Source: Bacteroidota bacterium (GTDB lineage: Bacteria > Bacteroidota > Ignavibacteria > Ignavibacteriales > Ignavibacteriaceae). From it: a DNA stretch of 12,910 bases. Below, one piece after another: positions 316 through 12,910 of the stretch. Where the stretch lies: the NCBI GenBank assembly GCA_022567875.1, contig JADFGB010000009.1, forward strand, positions 1 through 12,910. Direction: 5' to 3'. Position 1 is the stretch's first letter. Each line of letters opens with the position of its first letter. The notes under the pieces were generated by a model that did not search any database, was not told where the DNA came from, and was given only the letters and a program-made list of their open reading frames with translations. The translations under genes and the position numbers were made by a program.

Positions 316-2004
316 TTATTTTAACAATTCCTGAACTTTAGAAATAAGTTCATCAATATCAACATCCATTCTTTCACCGGTTGCACGTAGTTTTAATTCA
401 ACTTTATTTTCATTTAATTTTTTATTGCCGACAATTACTTGTATGGGCATACCGAGAAGATCGGCTTCTTTGAACTTATAACCTGCTTGCGCATCAATTC
501 TGTCGTCATATAATACTTCAATATTTTCTGATATAAGTTTTTCATAAATGGAATCAGATGTATTAGCAACATCTTCGTTTTTCATATTGAGTCCCATTAA
601 ATGAACCTGAAATGGAGTAAGAGTTTTATTCCAGATTATTCCGTTTTCATCGTTGTGCTGTTCAATATAGCACGCCATCACACGTTCAACGCCAATTCCG
701 TAGCTTCCCATTATTATCGGTTTTTCGTTACCATCTTCGTCTAAGAATGTTGCACCAAGGGCTTCAGAATATTTTGTACCAAGCTTGAAAATGTGTCCTA
801 ATTCTATAGCCGTAAAAACATCTAATTTATTATTACAATTAGGACATCTTTCACCTGAAGAAACAAACCGAAGGTCAAAATATTCTATTCCCTTTACATC
901 TCTTTTCAGATCAATTCCGCCAAGATGGAAATCATTTTTATTTGCACCGCTGTATAGATTATTGGCATCTTTCAATCTGTTATCTGCAATTATTCTTCCC
1001 TGATATTTTACAGGTCCGATTGAACCCGCTTCCGCACCGGTAATTTCAATAAGTTCTTCGGGATGAGCCGGACGAACATTCCCTCCGAACTCCTTTTGAA
1101 GCTTTACTTCGTTTACTTCATCGTTGCCGAGCATTAAAACTAAGACAGGTTTTTCATCAGCGATATAAACTCTTGATTTTGCACATTGGGTTTCATCAAT
1201 TTTTAAAAACTCGCAAAGTTCATCAATTGATTTTACGTTGGGTGTGGAAATCTCTTTTACTTCTTCGCTTTTGTCATCACGTAGTTTAGAATCAATTTTT
1301 GAAATAGCAACTTCAAGATTTGCCGCATAACCGCATTTAGTACAATGTGCAACAGTATCTTCGCCTGCATCGGATTTTATCATAAACTCTTCAGAACCCG
1401 CCCCTCCCATAGCTCCGCTTGAGGCACCCACAACAAAATAATCAATTCCGCACTTGTCAAATATATTTCTGTAAGCTTGATCGTGCAGCATATAACCTTT
1501 ATCAAGCCCTTCGGTTGTTGCATCAAGAGTATAAGCATCTTTCATTAAAAATTGTCTGCCCCTTATAACACCGCTTCTCGGTCTCGTTTCGTTTCTGTAT
1601 TTTGTTTGTATCTGGTACCATATCTGGGGTAAATCTTTATAAGATTGAATATGATTTTTAGCAGTAGATGCAACAATTTCTTCGTGGGTTGGGGCAAGCA
1701 CATATTCTCTGTTTTTTACATGAAATAAAGTATCTCCGAATGCTTCAACGCGTCCTGTTTGTTCCCAAATTTCTTTTGGATTAAGTCCCGGAAAATGGAA
1801 CTCCTGCCCGCCTATGGCGTTCATTTCTTCTCTAATAATTTCTGATATTTTTCTGATTACCCTGTAACCCAACGGTAAAAAGGAATAAATACCTGCCGAA
1901 AGCATTCTTATCATTCCGGCTCTCAGCATTAATATGTGACTTGTAACCACTGCTTCGTTAGGTGTTTCTTTTAAAGTAGGTACAAATGATTTACTTAGTT
2001 TCAT
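316..2004 (-). CDS. proS: Prolyl-tRNA synthetase (bacterial type with editing insertion)
   Basis: This cytoplasmic class II aminoacyl-tRNA synthetase charges tRNA-Pro with proline using ATP. The 562-residue product is close to the usual length of the bacterial (long, E. coli-like) form and looks complete. Visible landmarks are the THEE segment at 106-109, motif 2 around RNETRPR (137-143) followed by GRQFLMKDAY, and motif 3 GSYGIGVER (433-441). The stretch at about 225-400 between motifs 2 and 3 corresponds to the INS editing domain that deacylates Ala-tRNA-Pro. It is flanked by CxxC pairs at C221/C224 and C387/C390. Residues from about 463 to the end form the anticodon-binding domain. The start MKLSKSFVPT is the normal family N-terminus; no strong Shine-Dalgarno is seen. 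It lies downstream of the U32 gene with a 107-bp gap and no clear terminator between them. Confidence 0.97.
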   Translation of the reverse strand: MKLSKSFVPTLKETPNEAVVTSHILMLRAGMIRMLSAGIYSFLPLGYRVIRKISEIIREEMNAIGGQEFHFPGLNPKEIWEQTGRVEAFGDTLFHVKNREYVLAPTHEEIVASTAKNHIQSYKDLPQIWYQIQTKYRNETRPRSGVIRGRQFLMKDAYTLDATTEGLDKGYMLHDQAYRNIFDKCGIDYFVVGASSGAMGGAGSEEFMIKSDAGEDTVAHCTKCGYAANLEVAISKIDSKLRDDKSEEVKEISTPNVKSIDELCEFLKIDETQCAKSRVYIADEKPVLVLMLGNDEVNEVKLQKEFGGNVRPAHPEELIEITGAEAGSIGPVKYQGRIIADNRLKDANNLYSGANKNDFHLGGIDLKRDVKGIEYFDLRFVSSGERCPNCNNKLDVFTAIELGHIFKLGTKYSEALGATFLDEDGNEKPIIMGSYGIGVERVMACYIEQHNDENGIIWNKTLTPFQVHLMGLNMKNEDVANTSDSIYEKLISENIEVLYDDRIDAQAGYKFKEADLLGMPIQVIVGNKKLNENKVELKLRATGERMDVDIDELISKVQELLK

Positions 2005-2111
2005 AAATTTTTTCTGTTTTTTCTATTACGATAGAATTAAATGTATTTAGTAAAAATACTTAAATGATACAGCTAAATCAAAATAGCTCTTAGATTAGTA
2101 AGAATTGAAGT

Positions 2112-3335
2112 CTAATTTTTACTAACTATTTTATACACTTTATCGCGAGGTCGGATAAGTTCCATGCATGGAAATGTTATCTCTTCACCTTTTGATGCTT
2201 TACTTACTTTTTCGTCATTAGATAAAATAGATTCAATATTTAATTCAACAACTCCTGTAGTTTCACCTATTATATATACTTTATCATTTAAACCCAGATT
2301 TCCGTTCTCTATTTTAACAAAACCAATTTTCTGTTTCTTGAAATAATTTAGAACTTTACCAACATAAGTTTTTTTTACAACCGCCTGGTTACCGTAACCA
2401 TCAGTAAATTCTTCAGTAGAAGGGGGCTTAAAATAAAACCCGGATGAAAATCCTCTGTTATACACTTTTGAGAGTTTTTCCAATAACTCTTTTTTAATTC
2501 CTTTTGTAAGTTTCCCATCAAAATATAAATCAATTGCTTTTCTGTATGCACCAACAACTACCGCTACATACTCGGGGCTTCTTTTTCTCCCCTCAATTTT
2601 AAAAGAATTAATTCCCGCATCAATTAATTCATCTATAAATTCAATAGAGCAAAGATCTTTTGGTGAAAGAATATAGTCTTTACCCAATATCATTTGATTA
2701 CCTGTTTGAGTGTCTTTAATTTCATATTCCCTTCTGCACGGCTGAATACATTCACCTCTGTTTGCGCTTTTATCAAAAAGTTCGTGACTCATAAAACACC
2801 TGCCGCTAACCGCGATACACATTGCTCCGTGAACAAAAACTTCAATTTCAATATCTATTTCTGAGCTTATTTTTTTTATGTCTTCAAGCGTGCATTCACG
2901 GGCAAGCACAACTCTTTTGGCACCAAGCTCTTTATATAATTTTACAGAAGATGAATTAGAAACTGATGCCTGTGTGGAAACAACATAGGGCATGTTATAT
3001 TTTCTGCAAATATTTATTACCGAAAGATCCCAGCAAATTACCATATCAACACCGGAATCTTTTGCTTCACTAACTAATTTTTCAACGAGTTCTATTTCAT
3101 CTTCATAAATTATTGTGTTTAGTGCTAAATAAGATTTCACCTTTTTCTTTCGGCAGAATTCAACAATTTCTTTAAGTTCTTCAATTGAAAAATTTTTTGC
3201 TTTTGCTCGCATATTTAACTGATCAACACCAAAATAAACTGCATCTGCACCTGAGTTAACAGCAGTTCTAAGCATAGTCCAGTTTCCTGCAGGAGCCATT
3301 AGTTCCGGCTTTTTTATTTTATTATTTTTATTCAT
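2112..3335 (-). CDS. U32-family protein, probable prephenate-dependent RNA hydroxylase (TrhP/RlhA-like)
   Basis: This 407-residue protein belongs to the family historically called peptidase U32. Characterised E. coli members TrhP (YegQ) and RlhA are needed for hydroxylation of tRNA wobble uridine and of 23S rRNA C2501, using prephenate and depending on iron-sulfur biogenesis. The sequence shows the N-terminal signature ELMAPAGNW (11-19) followed by the DAVYFG segment. The U32 signature runs from E165 to S183 (EVFVHGAMC...SGRC). Cysteines C173, C180, C196 and C200 match the conserved cluster. The segment SPKDLCSIEFIDELIDAGI and the motif FKIEGRKRS follow. A small C-terminal beta-type domain begins at about residue 325. 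The length and C-terminal extension resemble TrhP more than RlhA, but the RNA target cannot be fixed from sequence. No signal peptide is present, so it is cytoplasmic. Confidence 0.9.
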   Translation of the reverse strand: MNKNNKIKKPELMAPAGNWTMLRTAVNSGADAVYFGVDQLNMRAKAKNFSIEELKEIVEFCRKKKVKSYLALNTIIYEDEIELVEKLVSEAKDSGVDMVICWDLSVINICRKYNMPYVVSTQASVSNSSSVKLYKELGAKRVVLARECTLEDIKKISSEIDIEIEVFVHGAMCIAVSGRCFMSHELFDKSANRGECIQPCRREYEIKDTQTGNQMILGKDYILSPKDLCSIEFIDELIDAGINSFKIEGRKRSPEYVAVVVGAYRKAIDLYFDGKLTKGIKKELLEKLSKVYNRGFSSGFYFKPPSTEEFTDGYGNQAVVKKTYVGKVLNYFKKQKIGFVKIENGNLGLNDKVYIIGETTGVVELNIESILSNDEKVSKASKGEEITFPCMELIRPRDKVYKIVSKN

Positions 3336-3409
3336 ATCACAAAATTAAAGAAATAAGGATTAAAATATTTTCTAACTATTAAAATTTTATTTACACTATA
3401 TTTCAGAAA

Positions 3410-3426
3410 ATATCTTAAAAAGATAT
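3410..3426. repeat. Short perfect inverted repeat in the U32/porin gap
   Basis: ATATCTT, a three-base AAA spacer and AAGATAT form a perfect 7-bp inverted repeat. It lies 75 bp upstream of the U32 start and about 55 bp past the end of the porin terminator hairpin. It could be an operator for the U32 gene, but a palindrome this AT-rich can easily arise by chance. Confidence 0.25.
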
Positions 3427-3479
3427 GACACATAAAAGTTATTAAACTTGATCTTAGGTATGGGAGGTCAAAGAATTAT

Positions 3480-3525
3480 AAAAAAAAAGACTGTCTCAAA
3501 TATAAAAACCATTTGAAACAGTCTT
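3480..3525 (-). terminator. Rho-independent terminator of the porin gene
   Basis: On the minus strand AAGACTGTTTCAAAT pairs with ATTTGAGACAGTCTT across a 9-nt loop. This gives a 15-bp stem with one G-U wobble, followed directly by a run of T (the A run at 3480-3488 on the plus strand). It starts 25 nt after the stop codon of the 3551-4822 gene. On the opposite strand the wobble becomes an A-C mismatch and no T run follows, so it acts in the minus direction. It separates the porin gene from the U32/proS group. Confidence 0.9.
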
Positions 3526-3550
3526 CCCAATAAATTAAAGAAAGGAATTA

Positions 3551-4822
3551 TTAAAATTTTATAGCAGTTTCTATCATAAATCCATCAAAATTACCACCAC
3601 TATAAACATTTGTTGGTCCAAAATCATTATAGTTTTGGTTTATGTAAATTATTTTTGCAAGTACATTGTCAGTTAAAAACCATCCGGCTCCAAATTGAAG
3701 TCTATTTATACTTACATCATTTGGATCACTATTTGCTAATTTACCGCTAACTCTATTATAACTGATTCCAAAATAAAGATTTTCATCTTCTCCAAATCTA
3801 TAAACAACATCACCTGAAATTTGTTTCCAAGTTCTATCTTCTGCAGCACCTTTAAAGTCGCCACCTTTAGTTGTTTCATATACTCCAAATATTTCCAATC
3901 CTTTAATTTTTACAAATGGATTTATCATTATTGAAGTTATATTGTCCTTAAAACCGGGTTTCCATCTTCCAGATGTAAAGACATCGGATGTTGTAGTTTG
4001 CATTACACTATAAAAACGAGAACCTGCTCTGTCACCGCCATAGAGATGTATGCTGGCATTTTTTGAAGTTGTATAAATGGAACCTGTTAATCTTACTCTC
4101 ATATCATTTTTTAATTCCATATCAACACCAAGCTTACCAACAAAAGAAAGTGAATTTTTACCAGGGGATTTAACATCTTGGTTTAACTTTCCATTAGTAA
4201 AACCTGCCATAGCAATTATACCATTTTTCTTATAATAAACTTCGGCACCAATTTCTGTTGTAAAACCATCCATTATTAAATTGCCTATAAACGGATTGTA
4301 AAGTGTTGAAGCATTATCAGATCTTCTAAAGTGAGCATCTCCATAATTAGTTTCCATATGCCCAATTTTTATTGTAACTGATTTCATAAGTTTCTTTAGA
4401 AATCCTTTTTTAATAAAATCGAGTTTATCAATTTGTAGATACCCTGATTTAATCCACGATTCAGTATGATGTCTTGAAGTAAGATAAGAAGTTAAGTGCA
4501 TTCTTACACCATTGGCAAGTTGTGCGTTAAAGGTAAGATTGTATGTAGCTAAATTAAAATTTTTCCCTAAATCTATTAAACTGTTTGCATCATTGCTATG
4601 GTTTAATCCTTGAAATTGCAAGGATGCCGCACCTCCAACCATTACTTTTAAACCATCAAACTTAATAGTATTAAATTTAGATGTTTCAAATGTATTTAGA
4701 CCCCTTTTATCCGGAAAACGATAATATTGTAAATCACGATCATTTCCTATTTGAGCATAACTTGTAAAAGAAAACATAAGTGATGTAATAAAAACGCTTA
4801 TAAAAAATATAATTGATTTCAT
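3551..4822 (-). CDS. Outer-membrane beta-barrel porin-like protein
   Basis: The 423-residue product has a Sec signal peptide (basic MKS, hydrophobic core, probable cleavage after SYA at residue 23, before QIG). The mature part is rich in alternating hydrophobic/polar strands and aromatics, and the protein ends in an aromatic residue (TAIKF), as outer-membrane barrels recognised by BamA usually do. Motifs such as KIGHMETNYGDAHFRRSD and YNPFIGNLIMDGF resemble those I associate with porin-like proteins of Bacteroidota-type bacteria, but I cannot name a substrate. The start is supported by AGAGG (4830-4834 on the plus-strand numbering), 7 nt upstream of the ATG. It is a single-gene unit: it has its own terminator and is divergent from the YceI genes, sharing the 4823-5139 gap. 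It may be coregulated with them, but I found no sigma-54 element facing it. Confidence 0.8.
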   Translation of the reverse strand: MKSIIFFISVFITSLMFSFTSYAQIGNDRDLQYYRFPDKRGLNTFETSKFNTIKFDGLKVMVGGAASLQFQGLNHSNDANSLIDLGKNFNLATYNLTFNAQLANGVRMHLTSYLTSRHHTESWIKSGYLQIDKLDFIKKGFLKKLMKSVTIKIGHMETNYGDAHFRRSDNASTLYNPFIGNLIMDGFTTEIGAEVYYKKNGIIAMAGFTNGKLNQDVKSPGKNSLSFVGKLGVDMELKNDMRVRLTGSIYTTSKNASIHLYGGDRAGSRFYSVMQTTTSDVFTSGRWKPGFKDNITSIMINPFVKIKGLEIFGVYETTKGGDFKGAAEDRTWKQISGDVVYRFGEDENLYFGISYNRVSGKLANSDPNDVSINRLQFGAGWFLTDNVLAKIIYINQNYNDFGPTNVYSGGNFDGFMIETAIKF

Positions 4823-5012
4823 GATAATACCTCTATTGTTAATTGAAATAGATTGCTAATAAGTATTAATCAAAAATGAGACCAAAAAAATAATCTCAAA
4901 GAAAATCTTTTTTTTACATCGTTTTTTAACTTTCTTTCAATATCTCTTAGATTTACACTGAATAAATTATTAAAAGATAGTGTATTCTTGCATTATCCAT
5001 ATATATCATTTC

Positions 5013-5026
5013 GTGCAAGTATGCAC
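5013..5026. promoter_or_regulatory. Perfect GTGCA-N4-TGCAC palindrome, candidate enhancer site
   Basis: GTGCAAGTATGCAC is a perfect two-fold palindrome with 5-bp half-sites. It is notable because G/C-containing half-sites are rare in this AT-rich gap. Its centre lies about 59 bp upstream of the -24 GG of the sigma-54 candidate, roughly -84 from the expected start. That is a typical position for an NtrC-family activator, and such a protein is encoded at 6452-7807. The link to that protein is inference. Confidence 0.5.
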
Positions 5027-5077
5027 TATGTAAACTTGTTTTCTTTTATCTCAGTAATTTTTAGTTAGTTTTAAAAA

Positions 5078-5093
5078 TGGTACGATATTTGTC
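5078..5093 (+). promoter_or_regulatory. Candidate sigma-54 (-24/-12) promoter for the YceI pair
   Basis: TGGTACGATATTTGTC fits the RpoN consensus TGGYACGnnnnTTGC well. The -24 GG is at 5079-5080, ten bases separate it from the -12 dinucleotide, and the ACG and TTG segments are conserved. The weak point is GT instead of GC at -12. The expected start is near 5104, giving a leader of about 35 nt before the ATG at 5140. An NtrC-type activator is encoded at the other end of the YceI genes. Confidence 0.6.
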
Positions 5094-5129
5094 TAATCTG
5101 TTTTAGAAATATTATAATAATCTATATAT

Positions 5130-5133
5130 GGAG
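5130..5133 (+). promoter_or_regulatory. Shine-Dalgarno that fixes the YceI-1 start at 5140
   Basis: GGAG lies 6 nt upstream of the ATG at 5140. An in-frame ATG at 5128 overlaps this element and would add MENL before the signal peptide. The spacing and the canonical MKKIK start of a Sec signal peptide favour 5140. Confidence 0.75.
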
Positions 5134-5139
5134 AACCTA

Positions 5140-5799
5140 ATGAAAAAAATCAAAATACTTGTTTTATCATTATTATTATTTGTAGTGATTCCTGTTGTAG
5201 CTCAAGAAAAAATAGCTAATGCTATACCTATTTCAACCCAAGATCAAATATTAAATCAAAAAGTATTTACACAACAACCCGGAAGTACATTATGGTTAGA
5301 TGGAACATCTACTCTGCATGATTATAAATCCATCAGTAATAAAATTAAATCTGAATTTATAACTAATTCTGATAATTTTGTAGATTTTATTACAAATAAA
5401 GATGGTGCAAAATTTAATTTGAAAACTATTATTCCTGTAATTAGTCTTAAACATAATAAGTTTAATGAAGACTTGGATGATAACCTTTATGATGCCATGA
5501 ACGAAGAAGAATATAAAGATATAGTTTATGAATTAACTTCTTATAAAAGTACTGTTCTTCCGGACTCAGGTAAAAATTGGTATCTTCTTAACACAATTGG
5601 AAATTTAACAATTGCAAGTGTTAAAAAAACAATAGAAATGAAAGCAATAGTATATAACACATCAGATGGTACAATACATTTTAAAGGAAGTAAATTGATA
5701 AATATGGAAGATTATAATATTGAACCGCCGTCGATGATGTTTGGAATGTTAAAAACAGACAAATTTGTAACAATTTCTTTTAATTTAATATTTAAATAA
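5140..5799 (+). CDS. Periplasmic YceI-like protein 1
   Basis: The 219-residue product begins with a Sec signal peptide (MKKIK, long Leu/Val core, probable cleavage after VVA at residue 21, before QEK). The mature protein has YceI-type landmarks. The first strand carries LWLDGTSTLHDY (51-62), like the GTSxLHDW motif of many Bacteroidota members. The central part has the DDNLYDAMNEEEY segment and GNLTIASVKKTIEM. The C-terminal DYNIEPPSMMFGMLKTDK (191-208) leads to the final strand FVTISFNLIF. YceI proteins are lipocalin-like barrels that bind polyisoprenoid lipids in the periplasm, and some are linked to quinone or cytochrome b561 redox systems; the ligand here is unknown. It is the first gene of a two-gene operon, 11 bp before YceI-2, behind a candidate sigma-54 promoter. 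Confidence 0.85.
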   Translation: MKKIKILVLSLLLFVVIPVVAQEKIANAIPISTQDQILNQKVFTQQPGSTLWLDGTSTLHDYKSISNKIKSEFITNSDNFVDFITNKDGAKFNLKTIIPVISLKHNKFNEDLDDNLYDAMNEEEYKDIVYELTSYKSTVLPDSGKNWYLLNTIGNLTIASVKKTIEMKAIVYNTSDGTIHFKGSKLINMEDYNIEPPSMMFGMLKTDKFVTISFNLIFK

Positions 5800-5810
5800 C
5801 AAAAAGTAAA

Positions 5811-6449
5811 ATGAAAATTTTAATAATTATAGGAATATTTTTCGGGAGTATCAGCATAATAGGACAGAGTAAAAATAGTATTACTTTTTTAGATTATAGT
5901 TTGCTTCCTAATAGTACTCTTGAATTTTTAGGTGAATCAACAATTAATACTTTTAATTTTAGGTCTGAATCACTTAAAGGAAGGGGTACTTATATTATTG
6001 ATAATTTTTTAAAAGATAGTTCTTATCTTGCAGAAATTTCTGTTGATATAGAGTCTTTTGATAGTGGTTCAGATTTAATGAATTCAGATATGTATGATGC
6101 TCTTAAGTATGAAGATTATCCAATAATAAATTTTAGATTGATTAAAATAAAACATATACAAAATTCAAATAATTCTCTACTAAATTTCAATGCGGATATT
6201 ATAGGAGTTTTAACTGTTGCCGGTAAAAGCAATAAAATGGACATAATTTTTGAGATTGTAATGCTCTCAGATAGTACATTTTATTTAAAAGGAAACAAAT
6301 CGATATCAATGCCTGATTTTAACATTGATCCCCCTTCTAAACTTTTTGGTTTGATTCAAGTAGATGATACTTTAATTATATATTTTAATTTATATGTTAA
6401 GTTTAAAAAAATCTTTTTTCTTAATTCTAATCTTTCTATATTGAAATAA
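5811..6449 (+). CDS. Periplasmic YceI-like protein 2
   Basis: The 212-residue product has a short Sec-like signal peptide (MKIL, isoleucine-rich core, probable cleavage after SIIG near residue 18). It keeps the YceI layout: an early strand STLEFLGESTINTF (35-48), the MYDALKYEDYPIINFRL segment (94-110), GVLTVAGKSNKMD, and DFNIDPPSKLFGLIQVDD (169-186). The last motif aligns residue for residue in style with DYNIEPPSMMFGMLKTDK of YceI-1, so the two are probably diverged tandem paralogues. The first motif lacks the LHD of YceI-1. About 14 basic and hydrophobic residues (KFKKIFFLNSNLSI) extend past the point where YceI-1 ends. No strong Shine-Dalgarno is seen, so translation may rely on coupling. 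The stop is 2 bp from the convergent stop of the response regulator, with no terminator between. Confidence 0.8.
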   Translation: MKILIIIGIFFGSISIIGQSKNSITFLDYSLLPNSTLEFLGESTINTFNFRSESLKGRGTYIIDNFLKDSSYLAEISVDIESFDSGSDLMNSDMYDALKYEDYPIINFRLIKIKHIQNSNNSLLNFNADIIGVLTVAGKSNKMDIIFEIVMLSDSTFYLKGNKSISMPDFNIDPPSKLFGLIQVDDTLIIYFNLYVKFKKIFFLNSNLSILK

Positions 6450-6451
6450 AT

Positions 6452-7807
6452 TCATTCTACTTCTATCGAATATTTTTGCATTTTACGATAAAGAGTGGAT
6501 TTATCAATAACCAAAATTGATGCTGTTTGAGCACGATTATAGTTGGTTTTTTTTAATACTTGTTCAATGTGATATTTCTCATATGAACCAAGTGCTTCTA
6601 ATAGTTTATCAGGAAATGTCGGTTGTATTTTTTCCAACCCTTTTAAAGAAGCAGGAAGGTCTTCTACTGTTATTTTATCTCCTTCACTTAATAGTACTGC
6701 TCTTTCAATACAATTTTCTAATTCTCTTATATTTCCTTTCCATTCATTATTTATCAATAAATTCATTGCTTCATTTGTAACTGTTTTTATGTTGCGAAAA
6801 AGTTCTTCATTATATTTTTCTATAAAATGGTTTATTAAAAGAGGTATATCTTCCTTTCTTTCTGAAAGCAAAGGCATTTCAATTTCAATAATGTTTAAAC
6901 GGTAATAGAGGTCTTCCCTAAACAACCCTTCATCAATTCTCTTTTTTAAGTCTCTATTACTTGCAGCAACTATTCTTATATCTACTTTTAAAAATGAATC
7001 CGATCCCAATGGTTTAATTTCTTTTTCCTGAATTACCCTTAATAACTTAACTTGCATATTTTCGGGTATTTCAGAAATTTCATCAAGAAAAAGCGTCCCT
7101 TTATTGGCAGATTTAATAGCACCGTCATAATTATTTATTGCGCCTGTAAAGGCACCTTTTTTGTGTCCAAAAAATTCAGATTCCCACAAACTTTCCGGTA
7201 CGGCACCACAATTAATAGGTATAAATGGTTTATTAGATCTATTGCTGCTAGAATGAATAGCTCGAGCAACCAATTCTTTTCCTGTTCCTGTAGGACCAGT
7301 TATTAAAATATTTGTATTTGATTTACTAACTCGTTTGATCATTTTATAAATATTTTTCATTACAGGGCTATTACCAATAATTAAATTGAAATTGAAATTT
7401 TTATCAATTTGTTTACTTAGAGCTTTATTTTCCATAATCAATTGATTATGTTTCAACAAATTTCTAATTCGAATCGTTACTTCGTCAAAATCCAAGGGTT
7501 TAAGAATATAATCGTATGCACCTTTACGGAGTGCCTGTACAGCAGTTTCTACTGAGCCAAATGCAGTAATTAAAACAACGATAGTTTGCGGTGCTACTTC
7601 TATTATCCTTTCCAATAGTTTTATTCCGTCCATTCCAGGCATACGGATATCACTTATTACTAAATCAAAATTTCTTTTTTCTAATTCAATTAAAGCTGAT
7701 TCAGCATTTTCGGAAGTAACACAATCATATCCTTCATCTTGTAATATAACAGAAAGTGAGTCTCTAATTTCTTGTTCATCATCGACTATTAAAATTGTTC
7801 CATTCAT
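6452..7807 (-). CDS. NtrC-family sigma-54-dependent response regulator
   Basis: The 451-residue cytoplasmic regulator has three standard parts. The receiver domain (about 1-120) has acidic pocket D9-D10-E11, phospho-acceptor D53 in the segment DIRMPG, and K103. The AAA+ domain has Walker A GPTGTGKE (171-178), the sigma-54-contacting loop GAFTGA (219-224) and Walker B GTLFLDE (237-243). A Fis-type DNA-binding helix-turn-helix occupies about 405-451 (NRAQTASILVIDKSTLYRKM). All catalytic and sigma-54-contact residues are intact, so it should be a functional phosphorylation-dependent activator of RpoN promoters. Its ATG abuts the TAG of the kinase gene (TAGATG), implying coupled translation with its partner. 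It converges on the YceI pair, whose upstream region has the only good sigma-54 promoter candidate I found, making that a likely target. Confidence 0.96.
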   Translation of the reverse strand: MNGTILIVDDEQEIRDSLSVILQDEGYDCVTSENAESALIELEKRNFDLVISDIRMPGMDGIKLLERIIEVAPQTIVVLITAFGSVETAVQALRKGAYDYILKPLDFDEVTIRIRNLLKHNQLIMENKALSKQIDKNFNFNLIIGNSPVMKNIYKMIKRVSKSNTNILITGPTGTGKELVARAIHSSSNRSNKPFIPINCGAVPESLWESEFFGHKKGAFTGAINNYDGAIKSANKGTLFLDEISEIPENMQVKLLRVIQEKEIKPLGSDSFLKVDIRIVAASNRDLKKRIDEGLFREDLYYRLNIIEIEMPLLSERKEDIPLLINHFIEKYNEELFRNIKTVTNEAMNLLINNEWKGNIRELENCIERAVLLSEGDKITVEDLPASLKGLEKIQPTFPDKLLEALGSYEKYHIEQVLKKTNYNRAQTASILVIDKSTLYRKMQKYSIEVE

Positions 7808-9121
7808 CTATTTTCTCTTTAATGGTAATTTAATTGTAAATTCAGTTCCACACCCTATCTCGGATTTTACATTAATTGTTCCTCCTAATTTAGTAATAAT
7901 TCCAAGACTTACAGATAGACCCAATCCTGTCCCGCTTCCAACAGGTTTTGTTGTAAAAAAAGGATTAAATATTTTTTTAATTATTTCTTCTGACATTCCA
8001 ATACCGTTATCTTCTATCATAAGACTTATAAAATCGCCAGAAATTTTTGTGCTAATATCTATTTGAGAATCTTCAATTTTTTGTGTTGCGTAAGCCGAGT
8101 TTAGAAGAAGATTTACTATTACCTGATGAATATTATCAGCATTTGAAAATATAATTGGTAAATCATTTTCAAGATTTAATTTAATATTAATATTTCTAAA
8201 TATTGAATCATATTTTAGGAGACTAGTTGCAGATTGAATAACATTATTTATATCAACTTCTATCATATCATCTGATGAGGGCCGGGAAAAATTTACCATT
8301 TGTCTCATTATATTTGTAATACGATTTATATGTATTCTCATTTTCTGCAAGTAATCTATAAAAAATTTTTCTTTTGACTTTCTTTGAAGCAATTGAACAA
8401 TTGAAGATATTGCTGTGAGAGGATTTCCTACTTCGTGTGCAACACCTGCAGCCATTTGCCCAATTGCTGAAAGACGTTCAGAGTGCTGCATATTTTCGTG
8501 TTGAATACGAAGTTCTGTAATATCACGCATAATAATAGAACTACCTTTTAACTCTCCAACCTCATTTTTAATAACTGTTTGTGTTAACTGTACAAGAATT
8601 ATATTTTTTTGTTTTGTTATCATTTTTGTTTCAAAATTTTTAATATAGTTTTTATTTATAACACGATCAAAGTGAGATTGCATTTTATTCATTGTAAATA
8701 AATTATCAGGTATAATATTATAAATTGATTTTCCTATTATTTCTTTTTTACTCCATCCAAAAATTTGTTCAGCCCCTTTGTTCCAGGTTTTTATAATTTG
8801 TTTGTTATCTAATGTAAGAATAGCATCAGCTGAATTTTCTATAATATTTTGATAAAGTATTTCTGTGCTTTTAAGTCTTTTTTGATAAAGTTTACGATAA
8901 GTATAGATTGTCCATATTGCCCAAGAACTGATTAATACTACAGATAATACTCCCCTAATTATATAATACCAATGAGTTGTAACAATAGGAAATTTATCAA
9001 AAATGTATGATTCAATTATTTCGATTAGTCCAAAAAGTATTCCAATGATAACAAAAATTGTAAATAATACATATGCATACCCAACATGTAAAATAAACTC
9101 TGATATTTTTTTAATTAACAT
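7808..9121 (-). CDS. Membrane PAS-domain sensor histidine kinase (NtrB-like)
   Basis: The 437-residue kinase has two N-terminal membrane segments (about 15-36 and 52-76) joined by a short loop. A PAS domain follows at about 85-200 (NSADAILTLDNKQIIKTWNK). The dimerisation/phosphoacceptor helix has H229 in the segment GVAHEVGNPLTAI, and the ATPase domain has an N box at 337-341, G1 DNGIGM (371-376), FFTTK (388-392) and G2 GTGLGLS (397-403). The very short periplasmic loop makes a soluble periplasmic ligand unlikely; the signal is more probably sensed in the membrane or by the cytoplasmic PAS domain. No PAS cofactor residue is obvious. It should autophosphorylate and transfer to D53 of the regulator encoded directly after it, with no gap between the genes. 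The start at 9121 is preceded by only a weak purine stretch. Confidence 0.95.
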   Translation of the reverse strand: MLIKKISEFILHVGYAYVLFTIFVIIGILFGLIEIIESYIFDKFPIVTTHWYYIIRGVLSVVLISSWAIWTIYTYRKLYQKRLKSTEILYQNIIENSADAILTLDNKQIIKTWNKGAEQIFGWSKKEIIGKSIYNIIPDNLFTMNKMQSHFDRVINKNYIKNFETKMITKQKNIILVQLTQTVIKNEVGELKGSSIIMRDITELRIQHENMQHSERLSAIGQMAAGVAHEVGNPLTAISSIVQLLQRKSKEKFFIDYLQKMRIHINRITNIMRQMVNFSRPSSDDMIEVDINNVIQSATSLLKYDSIFRNINIKLNLENDLPIIFSNADNIHQVIVNLLLNSAYATQKIEDSQIDISTKISGDFISLMIEDNGIGMSEEIIKKIFNPFFTTKPVGSGTGLGLSVSLGIITKLGGTINVKSEIGCGTEFTIKLPLKRK

Positions 9122-9372: not shown

Positions 9373-10077
9373 TTAATCATCACTTCTAATTTTTTCCAAG
9401 GCTTCATAATTTAGAATTTTAATTTTTTTGCCAATCAAATCTATTACCTTATCATTTTTAAACTCGGATAGAAAACGAATAAATGTTTCAGTAGCGGTTC
9501 CTGTAAATTGAGCCATCTCTTCTCTTTTTAAATCACACAATAAAGTACCGTCTTCACCTTCCCCCCAAAAATCTTTAATCAATAATATTGTTTCTGCAAC
9601 TCTTTCTCTAACATTTTTTAAAGAAATGGAAACCATATGGTTTTCGGCTGTTTTTAATTTATCAGATAGAAGTTTCATTAAGTTAACTGATAATTCAGGA
9701 TTGGATCTTAGGAGAGCAAAAAAAATATTTTTAGAAATATAGCAAATAACAGAATCTTCCATAGCAGTAGCAGTAGCATTATAATGTTCTCCAACAATTA
9801 AAGACCTATAACCTATTAAGTCACCTTCTTTTGCTAATCTTAATATTTGAACATTTCCATATTTATCATATTTATAAAGTTTGACTTTACCTTTATTTAT
9901 ACAATATATTCCCTCAGATTGTGAATTTTCTAAAAAAATATTCTGACCTTTTTTATAAATTTTAACACATTTAAATTCAGATAATTTTAAAATATCAACT
10001 TCAGAAATATTTTTAAAAATCGACCCAAATCGATTTTCACAATCTTTGCAAACAGGTAAATCATTTCTATAAGTCAT
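9373..10077 (-). CDS. Crp/Fnr-family transcriptional regulator with N-terminal CxxC
   Basis: The 234-residue regulator has an N-terminal cyclic-nucleotide-binding-type beta-roll (about 20-130), a long dimerisation helix (about 128-165) and a C-terminal winged HTH (about 184-221). The recognition helix segment TATETFIRFLSEF keeps the Glu and Arg that FNR and CRP use for base contact, but the FNR serine between them is Ile. Cysteines are at 10, 13, 37, 59, 112 and 181. C10/C13 in CKDCENRF, with C112 near the position of the central FNR cysteine, leave an Fe-S or redox-sensing role possible. However, the CxxCxxR-type N-terminus is common in Bacteroidota-type members that are not proven oxygen sensors. 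It is divergent from the Cyc2-like operon and shares a 190-bp promoter region with an FNR-like box, so it is the obvious candidate regulator of that operon and of itself. Confidence 0.92.
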   Translation of the reverse strand: MTYRNDLPVCKDCENRFGSIFKNISEVDILKLSEFKCVKIYKKGQNIFLENSQSEGIYCINKGKVKLYKYDKYGNVQILRLAKEGDLIGYRSLIVGEHYNATATAMEDSVICYISKNIFFALLRSNPELSVNLMKLLSDKLKTAENHMVSISLKNVRERVAETILLIKDFWGEGEDGTLLCDLKREEMAQFTGTATETFIRFLSEFKNDKVIDLIGKKIKILNYEALEKIRSDD

Positions 10078-10267: not shown

Positions 10268-10744
10268 ATGAATTCGTTAAGATTTCATTTAATTAAGCAT
10301 AATTTCTTCGAAGGATTTAGTTCTGAACAATTAGAACCACTTTTAAAATTTACTACAGACGAAGTATACAAAAAAGGTCAATTTATTTTCACGTCTTGGG
10401 AAGAAGCTAGAATGTTTTATTTGGTATATAATGGTTTAGTATCGTTAGAAATTCCTTATCTAAAAAATTCTTCTGCAATAATAAACTTTGTTTACCCGGG
10501 TGATATTATAGGTATTGATTGTTTATACGAACCTCACCGCTGGTACTTTGATGCAAGAGTTTTAAAAGAAACAAATGTTCTTTCTATTGCTACTGATTCA
10601 TTAAAAAAAATAATTGAAGAAGATAAAGATTTTGGATATCAATTTGTAAATCAATTAATCTTTCATATTAGAAAACAGATTTTAGATATAAGATTAATTT
10701 TATTAAAAAACTCATCTGAGTTTAAAATAAAAATATTTTCATAA
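10268..10744 (+). CDS. Stand-alone cyclic-nucleotide-binding-domain protein without HTH
   Basis: The 158-residue protein contains one Crp-type beta-roll: KKGQFIF (35-41), FYLVYNGLVSLEIP (50-63) and PGDIIG (77-82), then LYEPHRWYFDAR (86-97) and a C-terminal helix (about 121-147). It stops where Crp/Fnr regulators would continue into the winged helix. The YRWHFDAR-like motif and the total length match a known group of about 150-residue stand-alone domain proteins, so this looks like a complete protein rather than a broken regulator. Only 34 bp follow before the next gene, too few to hold a lost HTH. It has no signal peptide and should be cytoplasmic. Its ligand and partner are unknown; it may sense a redox or nucleotide signal for the operon it leads, or bind the divergent Crp/Fnr protein. 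The ATG has no strong Shine-Dalgarno. Confidence 0.85.
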   Translation: MNSLRFHLIKHNFFEGFSSEQLEPLLKFTTDEVYKKGQFIFTSWEEARMFYLVYNGLVSLEIPYLKNSSAIINFVYPGDIIGIDCLYEPHRWYFDARVLKETNVLSIATDSLKKIIEEDKDFGYQFVNQLIFHIRKQILDIRLILLKNSSEFKIKIFS

Positions 10745-10778: not shown

Positions 10779-12071
10779 ATGAAAAAGTTATACAACTTTA
10801 GGTTAAAATTAAAATCCTCTGGCTTGATTTTAGGATTTTTATTTTTAGCACTTTCAATTTCGGGTGCTTTTAATAAAGCAAGTGCAACCTCACAATGGGC
10901 AAAAAAATACAAAACAGGTTGTACAACATGTCACACAGCATTTCCAAGATTAAATAATTATGGAATGCGTTTTATGATGAATGGTTATCAGGATCCTGAT
11001 TCAGATACTCCTGATGGTGGAAAATTGGGGAAAAAAATGGTTAATACTTATCTATCAATAGATAATCTAAATAATTTTTTAGGTGTTAGACTAAACTTTA
11101 CACCATTAAGAGCTCAAACAAATGCAAGAACTATAAATGGTGTTAAAGAAACTAAATATAGTATAGGTATAACAAATTGGGTGCAATTTTTTGTTGCAGG
11201 TGCACTTAGTAAAAATGTTTCAATTTTTATAGAAATGGAATTCGAACAAGCACACTTTAAATTTTCTTGGTTTAAATTTGGAATTCACAATTTAGCTGAA
11301 TCTACATTGTTAAACTTTGAAGTTGGTAATATATCACCAGTTGATTATGCAAGTTATTCTAATAGATTACGTCAAATTGGTTCATTAAAAGGTGATATTT
11401 TTAGAATAAAGTCTTCTGGTGGTGCAACAACAAACCAACCTGAAGATAAAACAGATGTAAGTGGTTCTCGTCCAGGTTTACAATATTATGGATACAAAGG
11501 TCCTGTTGTTGTATGGGCTGGTGTTTCACCAGGCTCAGTTTCCACTGATCCTAATAATAAAATGCATGGATGGGCAGGTATAAAATTAGTTATTCCTGAA
11601 GAAATGGAATCTAAATTTGAAGGTACGGCTTTAACAGGTTGGATTTATAAGGGTCAAGATGCTTCAAATAGTTCAACAAATCAATTAATAAATTCCTTTT
11701 TTAGATACAGTATTCAAACTAATATAAGATATGATGATTTTGATTTGCAGGCTGCTTATATCAATACATCAGAAGACAATTATTATTTAACAACAACTCC
11801 AATAGAAGAAAATTATAATGGCTTTGCTCTAATTGCAGGTAAATATCTTGTTCCAGATAAAGTATATTTAGCTGTGGGCTATGATAAAATATCTTATAAC
11901 AACCCGATTTTAAATAATTCTAAAAAAAGAAATTTTATTACAGGTTCATTAAGTTACTTTATCCAAGAAAATATTAGACTTGGATTACATACAAAATTTG
12001 ATGTAACAAGCGAAGACTTCGGACATGTTCGTTCAAATGACTTTCAATTAAATGTAAGGACAATGTTCTAA
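10779..12071 (+). CDS. Cyc2-like fused monoheme cytochrome c / outer-membrane beta-barrel
   Basis: The 430-residue product has an N-terminal signal peptide (basic region to about 12, hydrophobic core, probable cleavage after ASA at residue 36). One heme-binding motif follows, CTTCH (C48, C51, H52), in the context CTTCHTAFPRLNNYGMRF and then NGY. This closely resembles the Cyc2 fused-cytochrome motif (CxTCHTxYPxLTPxGRxFKxxGY). The remaining 350 or so residues are strand-rich, with alternating hydrophobic/polar and aromatic positions, and the chain ends in Phe (NVRTMF), as expected for an outer-membrane barrel. Known Cyc2 proteins are about this size and carry electrons across the outer membrane, the best-studied case being Fe(II) oxidation; related single-heme barrels also occur in bacteria with no such phenotype. 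Here the donor or acceptor is inferred only. It overlaps the next cytochrome gene by 1 nt (TAATG). Confidence 0.8.
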   Translation: MKKLYNFRLKLKSSGLILGFLFLALSISGAFNKASATSQWAKKYKTGCTTCHTAFPRLNNYGMRFMMNGYQDPDSDTPDGGKLGKKMVNTYLSIDNLNNFLGVRLNFTPLRAQTNARTINGVKETKYSIGITNWVQFFVAGALSKNVSIFIEMEFEQAHFKFSWFKFGIHNLAESTLLNFEVGNISPVDYASYSNRLRQIGSLKGDIFRIKSSGGATTNQPEDKTDVSGSRPGLQYYGYKGPVVVWAGVSPGSVSTDPNNKMHGWAGIKLVIPEEMESKFEGTALTGWIYKGQDASNSSTNQLINSFFRYSIQTNIRYDDFDLQAAYINTSEDNYYLTTTPIEENYNGFALIAGKYLVPDKVYLAVGYDKISYNNPILNNSKKRNFITGSLSYFIQENIRLGLHTKFDVTSEDFGHVRSNDFQLNVRTMF

Positions 12072-12502
12072 TGAAGAAAACAACATTATATATAATCACT
12101 TTGATATTTAGTTTTGGGTTTGTTTATAGTAGCACAGTAAATGCTCAAACCAAGTCACCAAATGGATTAAAAATTTTCAAAGATAACAAGTGTACCAAAT
12201 GTCATACAATTAGTTCTTTATGTATAGGTGCAAAGGTCAAAAAAGTAGTAAAAAAAGAAGATGATGGTTGGGGATTTGACGATGATGAAGATGATGTTAA
12301 AGCACCTGATCTTTCAGATGTTGGATTAAAGTTCAAAGCTGAATGGATGAGCAAATGGTTACGCAAGAAAGTAAAGTTAGAAGGAAAAAAGCATAAAAGA
12401 CGTTTCAAAGGAAGCAAGGATGAGCTACAAGAATTAGTTAGTTGGTTAGCTACTTTAAGGGATGAAACAAATAAAGTTCCTGAACTTAAAAAAACAAAAT
12501 AA
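12071..12502 (+). CDS. Small periplasmic monoheme cytochrome c with a charged insert
   Basis: The 143-residue product has a Sec signal peptide (cleavage likely after VNA at residue 25, before QTK) and one heme motif, CTKCH (C41, C44, H45). After the heme come a basic stretch (KVKKVVKK, 55-62) and a strongly acidic stretch (about 63-76, with DDGWGFDDDEDD). The class I-like tail begins APDLSDVGLKFK (78-89), passes HKRRFKGS and ends in helix DELQELVSWLATL. The distal ligand is unclear: the usual Met-Pro segment is missing, M93 is the only mature methionine and H107 is an alternative. The gene overlaps the Cyc2-like stop by 1 nt, so the two are translationally coupled. This suggests a periplasmic partner carrying electrons between the outer-membrane cytochrome and an inner-membrane complex. 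The operon ends 17 bp later at a terminator. Confidence 0.88.
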   Translation: MKKTTLYIITLIFSFGFVYSSTVNAQTKSPNGLKIFKDNKCTKCHTISSLCIGAKVKKVVKKEDDGWGFDDDEDDVKAPDLSDVGLKFKAEWMSKWLRKKVKLEGKKHKRRFKGSKDELQELVSWLATLRDETNKVPELKKTK

Positions 12503-12518
12503 AGATTTCCCTTTATGT

Positions 12519-12552
12519 AAAGCCGGGAGCTAAACTCTCGGCTTTTTTTTTT
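12519..12552 (+). terminator. Rho-independent terminator after the cytochrome genes
   Basis: AAAGCCGGGAG and CTCTCGGCTTT form an 11-bp stem with one G-U wobble around a 5-nt loop (CTAAA), followed by a run of T to 12552. It begins 16 nt after the cytochrome c stop. The next gene starts 28 nt past the T run on the same strand, so the hairpin may also act as an attenuating, partly read-through step within a longer operon. Confidence 0.93.
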
Positions 12553-12580
12553 AGTATAGCAATTTATAGGATAATATTTG

Positions 12581-12910
12581 ATGAAGGCTACAAGACGAAA
12601 ATTTATTAAATCTATTTTGGGTGTTGGTGTTGTTGGAAGCATATTCTCTTTTTTATATCCGGTAATATCTTATCTAGTTCCTCCAAAAGTTCCTACAATA
12701 AATGTTAATTCAGTAAATGCAGGTAAATTTTTGGCACTAAAAAAAGGATCTTATAAAATATTAAAATTCGGAAGAGAACCGGTAATATTAATTAAAGATA
12801 AAGAAAATAATTTACATGCTTTAAATGCTACTTGTACTCATCTTGACTGTATTGTTCAATATAAAAAAGATACAAATCTAATTTGGTGTGCCTGCCATAA
12901 TGGTATATAT
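12581..12910 (+). CDS. Rieske [2Fe-2S] protein, N-terminal part (runs off the window)
   Basis: The open frame of 110 codons reaches the window end without a stop. The N-terminus has a twin-arginine-like start (MKATRRKFIK) followed by a hydrophobic segment (about 11-33), typical of Rieske subunits exported by Tat and kept as a membrane anchor. Both cluster-binding boxes are present: CTHLDC (C85, H87, C90) and CACHNG (C103, C105, H106). C85, H87, C103 and H106 should ligate the [2Fe-2S] cluster and C90-C105 form the disulfide seen in high-potential bc-type Rieske proteins. It is therefore probably the iron-sulfur subunit of a quinol:cytochrome c reductase, oxidising quinol (or working in reverse) at the periplasmic face; a cytochrome b gene would be expected just downstream. 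A weak AGG lies 10 nt before the ATG. The upstream gap is too short for an obvious promoter beyond the terminator. Confidence 0.93.
   Translation, partial: MKATRRKFIKSILGVGVVGSIFSFLYPVISYLVPPKVPTINVNSVNAGKFLALKKGSYKILKFGREPVILIKDKENNLHALNATCTHLDCIVQYKKDTNLIWCACHNGIY

Follow-up and report, generated by a model that had tools for sequence, protein, structure and literature searches.

A Cyc2-superfamily branch outside the published motif and a candidate extracellular electron conduit in an uncultured ignavibacterium

Contig JADFGB010000009.1 of the Bacteroidota assembly GCA_022567875.1 (Ignavibacteriaceae) appears to carry an overlooked branch of the Cyc2 family in an uncultured low-GC bacterium, as part of a wire for electrons that would join the cell surface to the respiratory membrane. 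The window analysed here is this whole contig (C51, 12,910 bases), which belongs to a genome, G000, of 1.85 Mb in 408 contigs and 77% completeness. The gene in question encodes a fused cytochrome-porin and lies in a block of approximately 6.5 kb, together with genes for an FNR/CRP-type regulator, a cNMP-domain protein, a small cytochrome c, a Rieske protein, a cytochrome b and a nonaheme cytochrome. We propose, with a probability of roughly 0.62, that the products of this block form an extracellular electron conduit linked to the quinone pool. Gene content, predicted fold, homology and synteny lend genomic support to the outer-membrane-to-quinone path that a preliminary description of the locus had put forward.

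In the conduit that we propose, electrons would pass between a partner outside the cell and the sole heme of an OprO/OprP-like outer-membrane barrel, located at its periplasmic end, and this heme would exchange them with the small periplasmic cytochrome c. From there, electrons would move to or from the nonaheme cytochrome and a Rieske/cytochrome b complex in the inner membrane, which would link the path to the quinone pool. We infer the order of these steps from homology and gene company.

A fused cytochrome-porin with its own signature

The features at the right end of the window are as follows.

10779–12071, plus strand: Cyc2-superfamily fused monoheme cytochrome-porin of the 'SQW' clade, with signal peptide, CTTCH, a barrel of 16 longer strands and a C-terminal RxMF
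10920–10934, plus strand: CTTCH motif for attachment of heme c, then AFPRLN, which places PXL at the Cyc2 spacing
12057–12068, plus strand: C-terminal R-T-M-F; R427 and M429 occur in 111/111 clade members, and M429 is the proposed heme ligand
12071–12502, plus strand: small cytochrome c with one heme, predicted bis-His, in which His108 is invariant and no Met conserved (Pfam, 21.0 bits)
12519–12545, plus strand: intrinsic-terminator-like stem-loop between the cytochrome c and Rieske genes (11 pairs, T tract)
12578–12910, plus strand: bc-type Rieske iron-sulfur protein, truncated at the contig end after approximately 110 N-terminal residues (PF00355, E 4.2e-9)

The open reading frame (ORF) at 10779–12071 encodes 430 residues ending in RTMF, and its sole CXXCH (CTTCH, residues 48–52) follows a signal-peptide-like start, as the preliminary description had read it: one CTTCH behind a signal peptide, and a body ending in Phe. 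Searches with the protein gave no Pfam match at E <= 0.1, no match among PDB sequences at E <= 1, and a single NCBIfam match that lies far under its cut-off. A scan of genome contigs with the single protein matched 12 stretches and yielded no relatives, and the profile of the protein's clade gave nothing of use among PDB sequences, where one match, to a multiheme cytochrome, had E 0.008 over 37 positions. The confident AlphaFold model (predicted local distance difference test score, pLDDT, 90.7) forms a barrel with 16 longer strands, the number that the preliminary description had proposed to look for. Its top structural matches in the PDB are OprO and OprP, the same matches as published for the 16-strand porin of Cyc2 (PMC8406198). 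Heme attachment, the plug position and an outer-membrane location are predicted for this protein.

At E <= 1e-3, the protein has 121 homologues. One CXXCH is present in 114 of the 120 that were listed; five of the remaining six begin inside the gene, and the sixth (P0113) is gapped there by eye. Setting aside nine proteins (<=380 residues, or lacking CXXCH in the first 120 residues) leaves a clade set of 111 members. All 111 have a single CXXCH, the presence of which was itself selected for, so that the invariance of C48, C51 and H52 is partly a product of selection. K43, R104, E152, R427 and M429 are likewise found in 111/111, and W40 in 100/111. Methionine is the penultimate residue in every clade member, versus 0/61 PxFAR proteins, 52 of which have Ala or Gly there. 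Because strand alternation would turn Met429 and Arg427 towards the lumen near the periplasmic rim, Met429 is the best heme-ligand candidate, and we suggest that it ligates the barrel heme.

Relationship to Cyc2

The Cyc2 screen of Keffer et al. 2021 used CXXCH, a length of at least 365 residues and an upstream PXFAR[Q/K][T/Y] (PMC8406198). The window protein shares with Cyc2 the signal peptide, the single N-terminal CXXCH, the length (430 residues) and the PXL four residues after CXXCH (CHTAFPRL). This PXL has the exact spacing in 109/111 clade members and occurs in 0/18 of the Chlorobium-like PxFAR comparison set. Where Cyc2 has AXPXFAR[QK][TY], the clade has a form such as A[TV]SQ[WF][AS][RK]K[YT]; the penultimate Met and a separate position on the tree are also the clade's own.

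Our Cyc2 anchors were Chlorobium-like PxFAR proteins (a label assigned by inference) and Cyc2-type proteins on Pseudomonadota plasmids. Nine plasmid records were found and six analysed, with two late-annotated starts extended before tree building. A further PxFAR set, 'M' (n = 32), consists of 30 of 120 listed homologues plus two loci. Against the clade profile, median E values were 1.5e-20 for the 18 Chlorobium-like proteins, 2.3e-16 for the 32 'M' proteins and 2.1e-7 for the six plasmid-borne proteins as annotated. One strong match in the background set, L072, turned out to be a piece of the window gene. In the phylum sample the profile matched 53 of 198 genomes, three of which, G000 included, have a full clade-type gene; most of the other matches cover the cytochrome part only.

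Profile-to-profile alignment with hhalign, for which the clade profile was built from every second member (56/111), gave E values of 2e-36 (full length), 5e-9 (barrel) and 2e-20 (cytochrome) between the clade and the Chlorobium-like type, in which the genome's own second Cyc2 was included. Between the clade and the 'M' plus plasmid type the full-length value was 1e-20, with no barrel match (E 0.77), and between the two PxFAR types the values were 1e-27 (full) and 2e-7 (barrel). Judged by these values, the distance between the clade and one PxFAR type is no greater than that between the PxFAR types themselves. Its likeness to Cyc2 includes profile homology in the cytochrome part and, in the barrel, homology to the Chlorobium-like type. 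The similarity thereby goes beyond the heme motif and architecture on which the preliminary description had based it, since barrel-only profiles also match the Chlorobium-like type.

In an unrooted tree of 72 rows the window clade by itself forms one side of a branch (100/99). It lies on the side of the Chlorobium-like type, where the second Cyc2 of G000 also falls, apart from the 'M'/plasmid type (100/100). The long-branched L051 adjoins the clade (92/78), and its placement is unsure. Left out before the tree were 79/111 clade members and 21/32 'M' proteins, and before alignment A1, 54/120 homologues. At the level of sequence, these comparisons place the window protein in the Cyc2 superfamily, in a clade of its own on the Chlorobium-like PxFAR side. 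The Cyc2-like reading of the preliminary description holds in the form of a separate clade on a Cyc2-type tree, one that lacks the PXFAR[QK][TY] signature. We found no description of the clade in a limited search of the open-access literature.

A probable bc complex across the contig end

The Rieske gene, reported earlier as lying just downstream of the cytochrome c gene, starts at 12578 (TTG) or 12581 (ATG). The sole PF13631 cytochrome b match in G000 is at the very start of another contig, C57, which begins inside the gene (PF00033, E 1.4e-45) and retains 299 residues, versus approximately 360 in relatives. The next gene encodes a nine-heme cytochrome, whose C-terminus appears by eye to form a membrane helix.

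Synteny joins the two contigs. Window positions 354–9121 are collinear with contig C3 of the same-genus genome G152 at 91.5–93.6% DNA identity, save one extra G152 gene, and positions 4374–9121 with contig C75 of the same-genus genome G198 at 80.5%. In both genomes the next shared sequence, approximately 160–170 bp on, is C57 from base 2389. Consequently, C57 is read as following C51; the junction itself is unsequenced, with a gap estimated from the missing residues at approximately 0.3 kb. By this synteny, the Rieske gene is followed by cytochrome b and the nine-heme cytochrome, and the earlier expectation that the genes after 12910 belong to a bc complex is borne out.

The same arrangement recurs elsewhere. 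In 14/14 relatives with a cytochrome b at least 55% identical (the match spans the full query in 13 and lies on two contig pieces in G214), the gene directly upstream is a Rieske gene whose product is 47–61% identical to the window Rieske protein, and the gene after cytochrome b encodes a multiheme protein, truncated at a contig end in two of the relatives. These modules (L078–L091) resemble the block in gene order, in a cytochrome b of approximately 360 residues that is 55–68% identical to the block's, and in a cytochrome with 9 or 11 CXXCH motifs where uncut. The Rieske protein of contig C196 was considered as a partner of the C57 cytochrome b and rejected, its best relative being of the L100 type at 32% identity.

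The small cytochrome c and partner genes in relatives

The small cytochrome c gene (143 residues, monoheme) begins on the final stop-codon base of the Cyc2-like gene, confirming the one-nucleotide overlap described previously. Its Pfam cytochrome c score of 21.0 bits is just under the cut-off of 21.3, and a homologue search with it returned two matches only. A small monoheme cytochrome c lies directly downstream of the Cyc2-like gene in 14/31 testable named relatives versus 1/442 other ORFs at the same loci, a comparison in which independence is overstated because near-duplicates (e.g. L005/L006, L004/L032, L009/L014) were kept. Two of the 33 loci are cut at the gene end and were left out, and L017 (spurious, another protein) was scored as a miss. 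Eleven of the 14 cytochromes are of the window type, and three (L020, L026, L034) have an ordinary MPxY site. In the window-type alignment (n = 13: the window, the 11 loci and P0242), His108 is present in 13/13 and no Met is conserved beyond the start; four family members have a His at the equivalent place by eye. The small cytochrome c is thus predicted to be bis-His ligated. Cytochromes with bis-His hemes are expected to have low potential.

Other redox genes also keep company with the Cyc2-like gene. An MtrB_PioB barrel (E 1.5e-104 and 2.5e-84) and a ten-heme protein adjoin it in Elusimicrobia L034 and Deltaproteobacteria L028. L034 further encodes a putatively CbcL-like heptaheme protein that carries a b561-type domain, a 14-heme protein of which one part is NapC-type, a Rieske protein and a cytochrome b. 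In Neomarinimicrobiota L002 a NapC-type protein occupies position +2, and genes for Rieske, cytochrome b and an octaheme protein lie immediately upstream on the same strand in Nitrospina L010. At the plasmid Cyc2-type loci, a c-type cytochrome gene is directly next in 5/6 analysed (9 found).

Several of these loci merit description in their own right. In L034, positions 6756–16972 form a same-strand cluster of the ten-heme and MtrB-type barrel genes, the Cyc2-like gene, the small cytochrome c gene, three more multiheme genes, Rieske and cytochrome b, so that two kinds of outer-membrane conduit stand side by side. Octaheme cytochromes that adjoin the Cyc2-like gene at L009 (11968–13506) and L025 (7823–9502) are probably on the cell surface, given their type IX secretion sorting tails. 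One clade member (L019) is on a contig titled Yanofskybacteria, a group in which no outer membrane is expected, and this contig is possibly mis-binned.

Origin of the block

The left part of the block and its flank comprise three features.

7808–9121, minus strand: histidine kinase of the left flank, the last gene shared with G152 (81% protein identity) and G198 (72%)
9373–10077, minus strand: FNR/CRP-type transcription regulator (cNMP_binding, Pfam E 2.5e-20; HTH_Crp_2, 3.4e-14), divergent from the conduit genes
10268–10744, plus strand: cNMP-binding-domain protein without a helix-turn-helix match (PF00027, E 2.3e-11), 34 bp upstream of the Cyc2-like gene

DNA collinearity with the genus mates stops at 9121, and at the site of the block both G152 and G198 have a short intergenic gap. 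The regulator, whose best NCBIfam model is FNR (under its cut-off), and the cNMP-binding protein have no counterpart between the shared flanks in loci L142 and L143. A cytochrome b tree of 16 rows groups G000 with three genomes of family f2 (100/99), as does a multiheme tree of 14 rows (100/100), and neither groups it with its genus mates. The Cyc2-like protein, for its part, falls with a Marinimicrobia sequence and not with the Ignavibacteria one (P0007, P0108). A full Cyc2-like gene is present in 5/80 genomes of the family, and the mate G199 has a contig-end fragment. Since the block is missing at its site in both mates and its trees group elsewhere, we read it as an acquisition; this suggests transfer, with gain versus loss not formally polarised. 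A binning error as the contig's origin was rejected, as proS and a response regulator are 92% and 94% identical to genes on one G152 contig.

Direction of electron flow and alternative explanations

The proposed conduit invites comparison with the Cyc2–Cyc1/CycA1–bc1 or alternative complex III chain described for iron oxidisers (He et al. 2017; PMC5566968), with which it shares an outer-membrane cytochrome, a periplasmic cytochrome and a quinone-linked inner-membrane complex. It differs in that the partner is a small monoheme cytochrome with predicted bis-His ligation, and in that the bc complex comes with a nine-heme cytochrome, all within approximately 6.5 kb. Uptake from Fe(II) would run from the barrel heme through the small cytochrome c to an oxidase downhill and a reversed bc complex uphill. 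The Cyc2 of Mariprofundus oxidises Fe(II) (PMC8406198), and G000 has a COX1 gene, genes on contig C116 that resemble ActA/ActB of alternative complex III by eye, and a second Cyc2-like gene, of the PxFAR type, on C196. We nevertheless regard Fe(II) oxidation as a somewhat unlikely function here, as the clade falls outside the published Cyc2 motif definition and its partner cytochrome has no conserved Met, suggesting a low potential. Such a potential is what one would expect of a bis-His partner, and for this reason the direction leans, only slightly, to release, from quinol to an outside acceptor. A fuller version, which we put forward as a doubtful conjecture, would combine a Cyc2 branch outside the motif definition with a dedicated low-potential bis-His cytochrome into a quinone-linked conduit able to send electrons outward, its barrel heme held by a Met of the last barrel strand, and travelling from lineage to lineage as a compact respiratory cassette with its own bc–nonaheme complex. 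Gene company does not settle the direction, since NapC/CymA- and CbcL-type proteins are reported both in Fe(III) reducers and in Fe(II) oxidisers (PMC6295460).

A number of observations limit, or weigh against, the reading as a single quinone-linked conduit. The window protein reads SQWAKKY at the site of the Cyc2 signature, and P.FAR[QK] occurs in 0/111 clade members; the literature search described above found no report of expression, redox or localisation for the clade. A heme-less barrel of the window (3551–4822) matches the clade profile weakly (E 7e-4), so that similarity at the barrel level alone is not specific. No small cytochrome c lies just downstream in 17/31 named relatives, three Aminicenantes included. 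Rieske and cytochrome b genes are within the examined flank in only 4/33 named loci (L010, L018, L030, L034), the flanks of 11/32 tabulated loci contain no further gene for a heme protein, a Rieske protein or cytochrome b, and three carriers of the Cyc2-like gene (G019, G035, G212) have their bc complex on another contig. Further, the terminator-like site at 12519–12545 splits the unit, so that a single transcript of the three genes need not be assumed; two such sites occur in the scanned stretch, versus 0.9 +/- 0.9 in shuffles.

This last site would fit two independent modules that are simply neighbours, the Cyc2-like/cytochrome c pair and a separate bc complex. Unlike the block, all 14 relatives of the bc module lack a Cyc2-like gene within their short flanks (approximately 1.5 kb or less), and the nearest named relatives of the Cyc2-like protein are Marinimicrobia while the bc genes group with family f2. 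Both halves are nonetheless jointly missing from the same short site in two mates, and the four loci named above also have a bc complex close to the Cyc2-like gene, so that we consider such chance adjacency improbable. The barrel might also be a substrate porin, redox-gated or stabilised by its heme, that moves no electrons across the membrane: its best structural matches are substrate porins, and one heme cannot span a membrane alone. This we judge very improbable, given the cytochrome, MtrAB-type and bc genes that recur nearby and the homology to a family in which Fe(II) oxidases have been characterised. An MtrB/PioB-type conduit was rejected for G000, as the barrel ORF has no Pfam match and PF11854 is not found in the 77%-complete genome; the window gene differs from an MtrAB-type complex, in which a large MtrB_PioB barrel pairs with a separate multiheme cytochrome.

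Wider context and other genes

The Cyc2 gene serves as a marker of iron oxidation. A clade of the same architecture, with another signature and perhaps another heme ligand and partner cytochrome, would widen the set of bacteria that trade electrons with their surroundings, and would caution against taking every fused cytochrome-porin for an iron oxidase. As a compact block in one species that is cleanly absent from two others of its genus, the locus offers a natural experiment on conduit function. Surface electron transfer in this group is not new, as earlier reports describe FeGenie matches to Cyc2 and Ignavibacteriales with iron-oxidation genes (PMC8478452), as well as porin-cytochrome complexes in Ignavibacteria (PMC7399161).

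Elsewhere in G000, the second Cyc2-like gene (PxFARKY type, 445 residues) lies at another contig end (C196; L065, 5964–8684), followed by genes for a carboxypeptidase-regulatory-like protein and a different Rieske protein. Its AlphaFold model (pLDDT 57.9) was too poor for a structure search. The ActA/ActB-like genes, assigned by eye, are at L115 (C116, 214–3019) and the COX1 terminal oxidase gene at L116 (C406, 426–2261); given these genes, the organism probably also respires oxygen.

Within the window, the heme-less outer-membrane-barrel-like protein at 3551–4822 (minus strand, 423 residues) is 98% identical in G152. Its gene adjoins two tandem genes for YceI-domain proteins (5128–6449, plus strand), conserved in G152 and G198. 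A further possible envelope redox unit is found at L076 (C133, 3056–5940), where three genes in a row encode a protein with two CXXCH motifs, a Rieske protein and one that looks barrel-like by eye.

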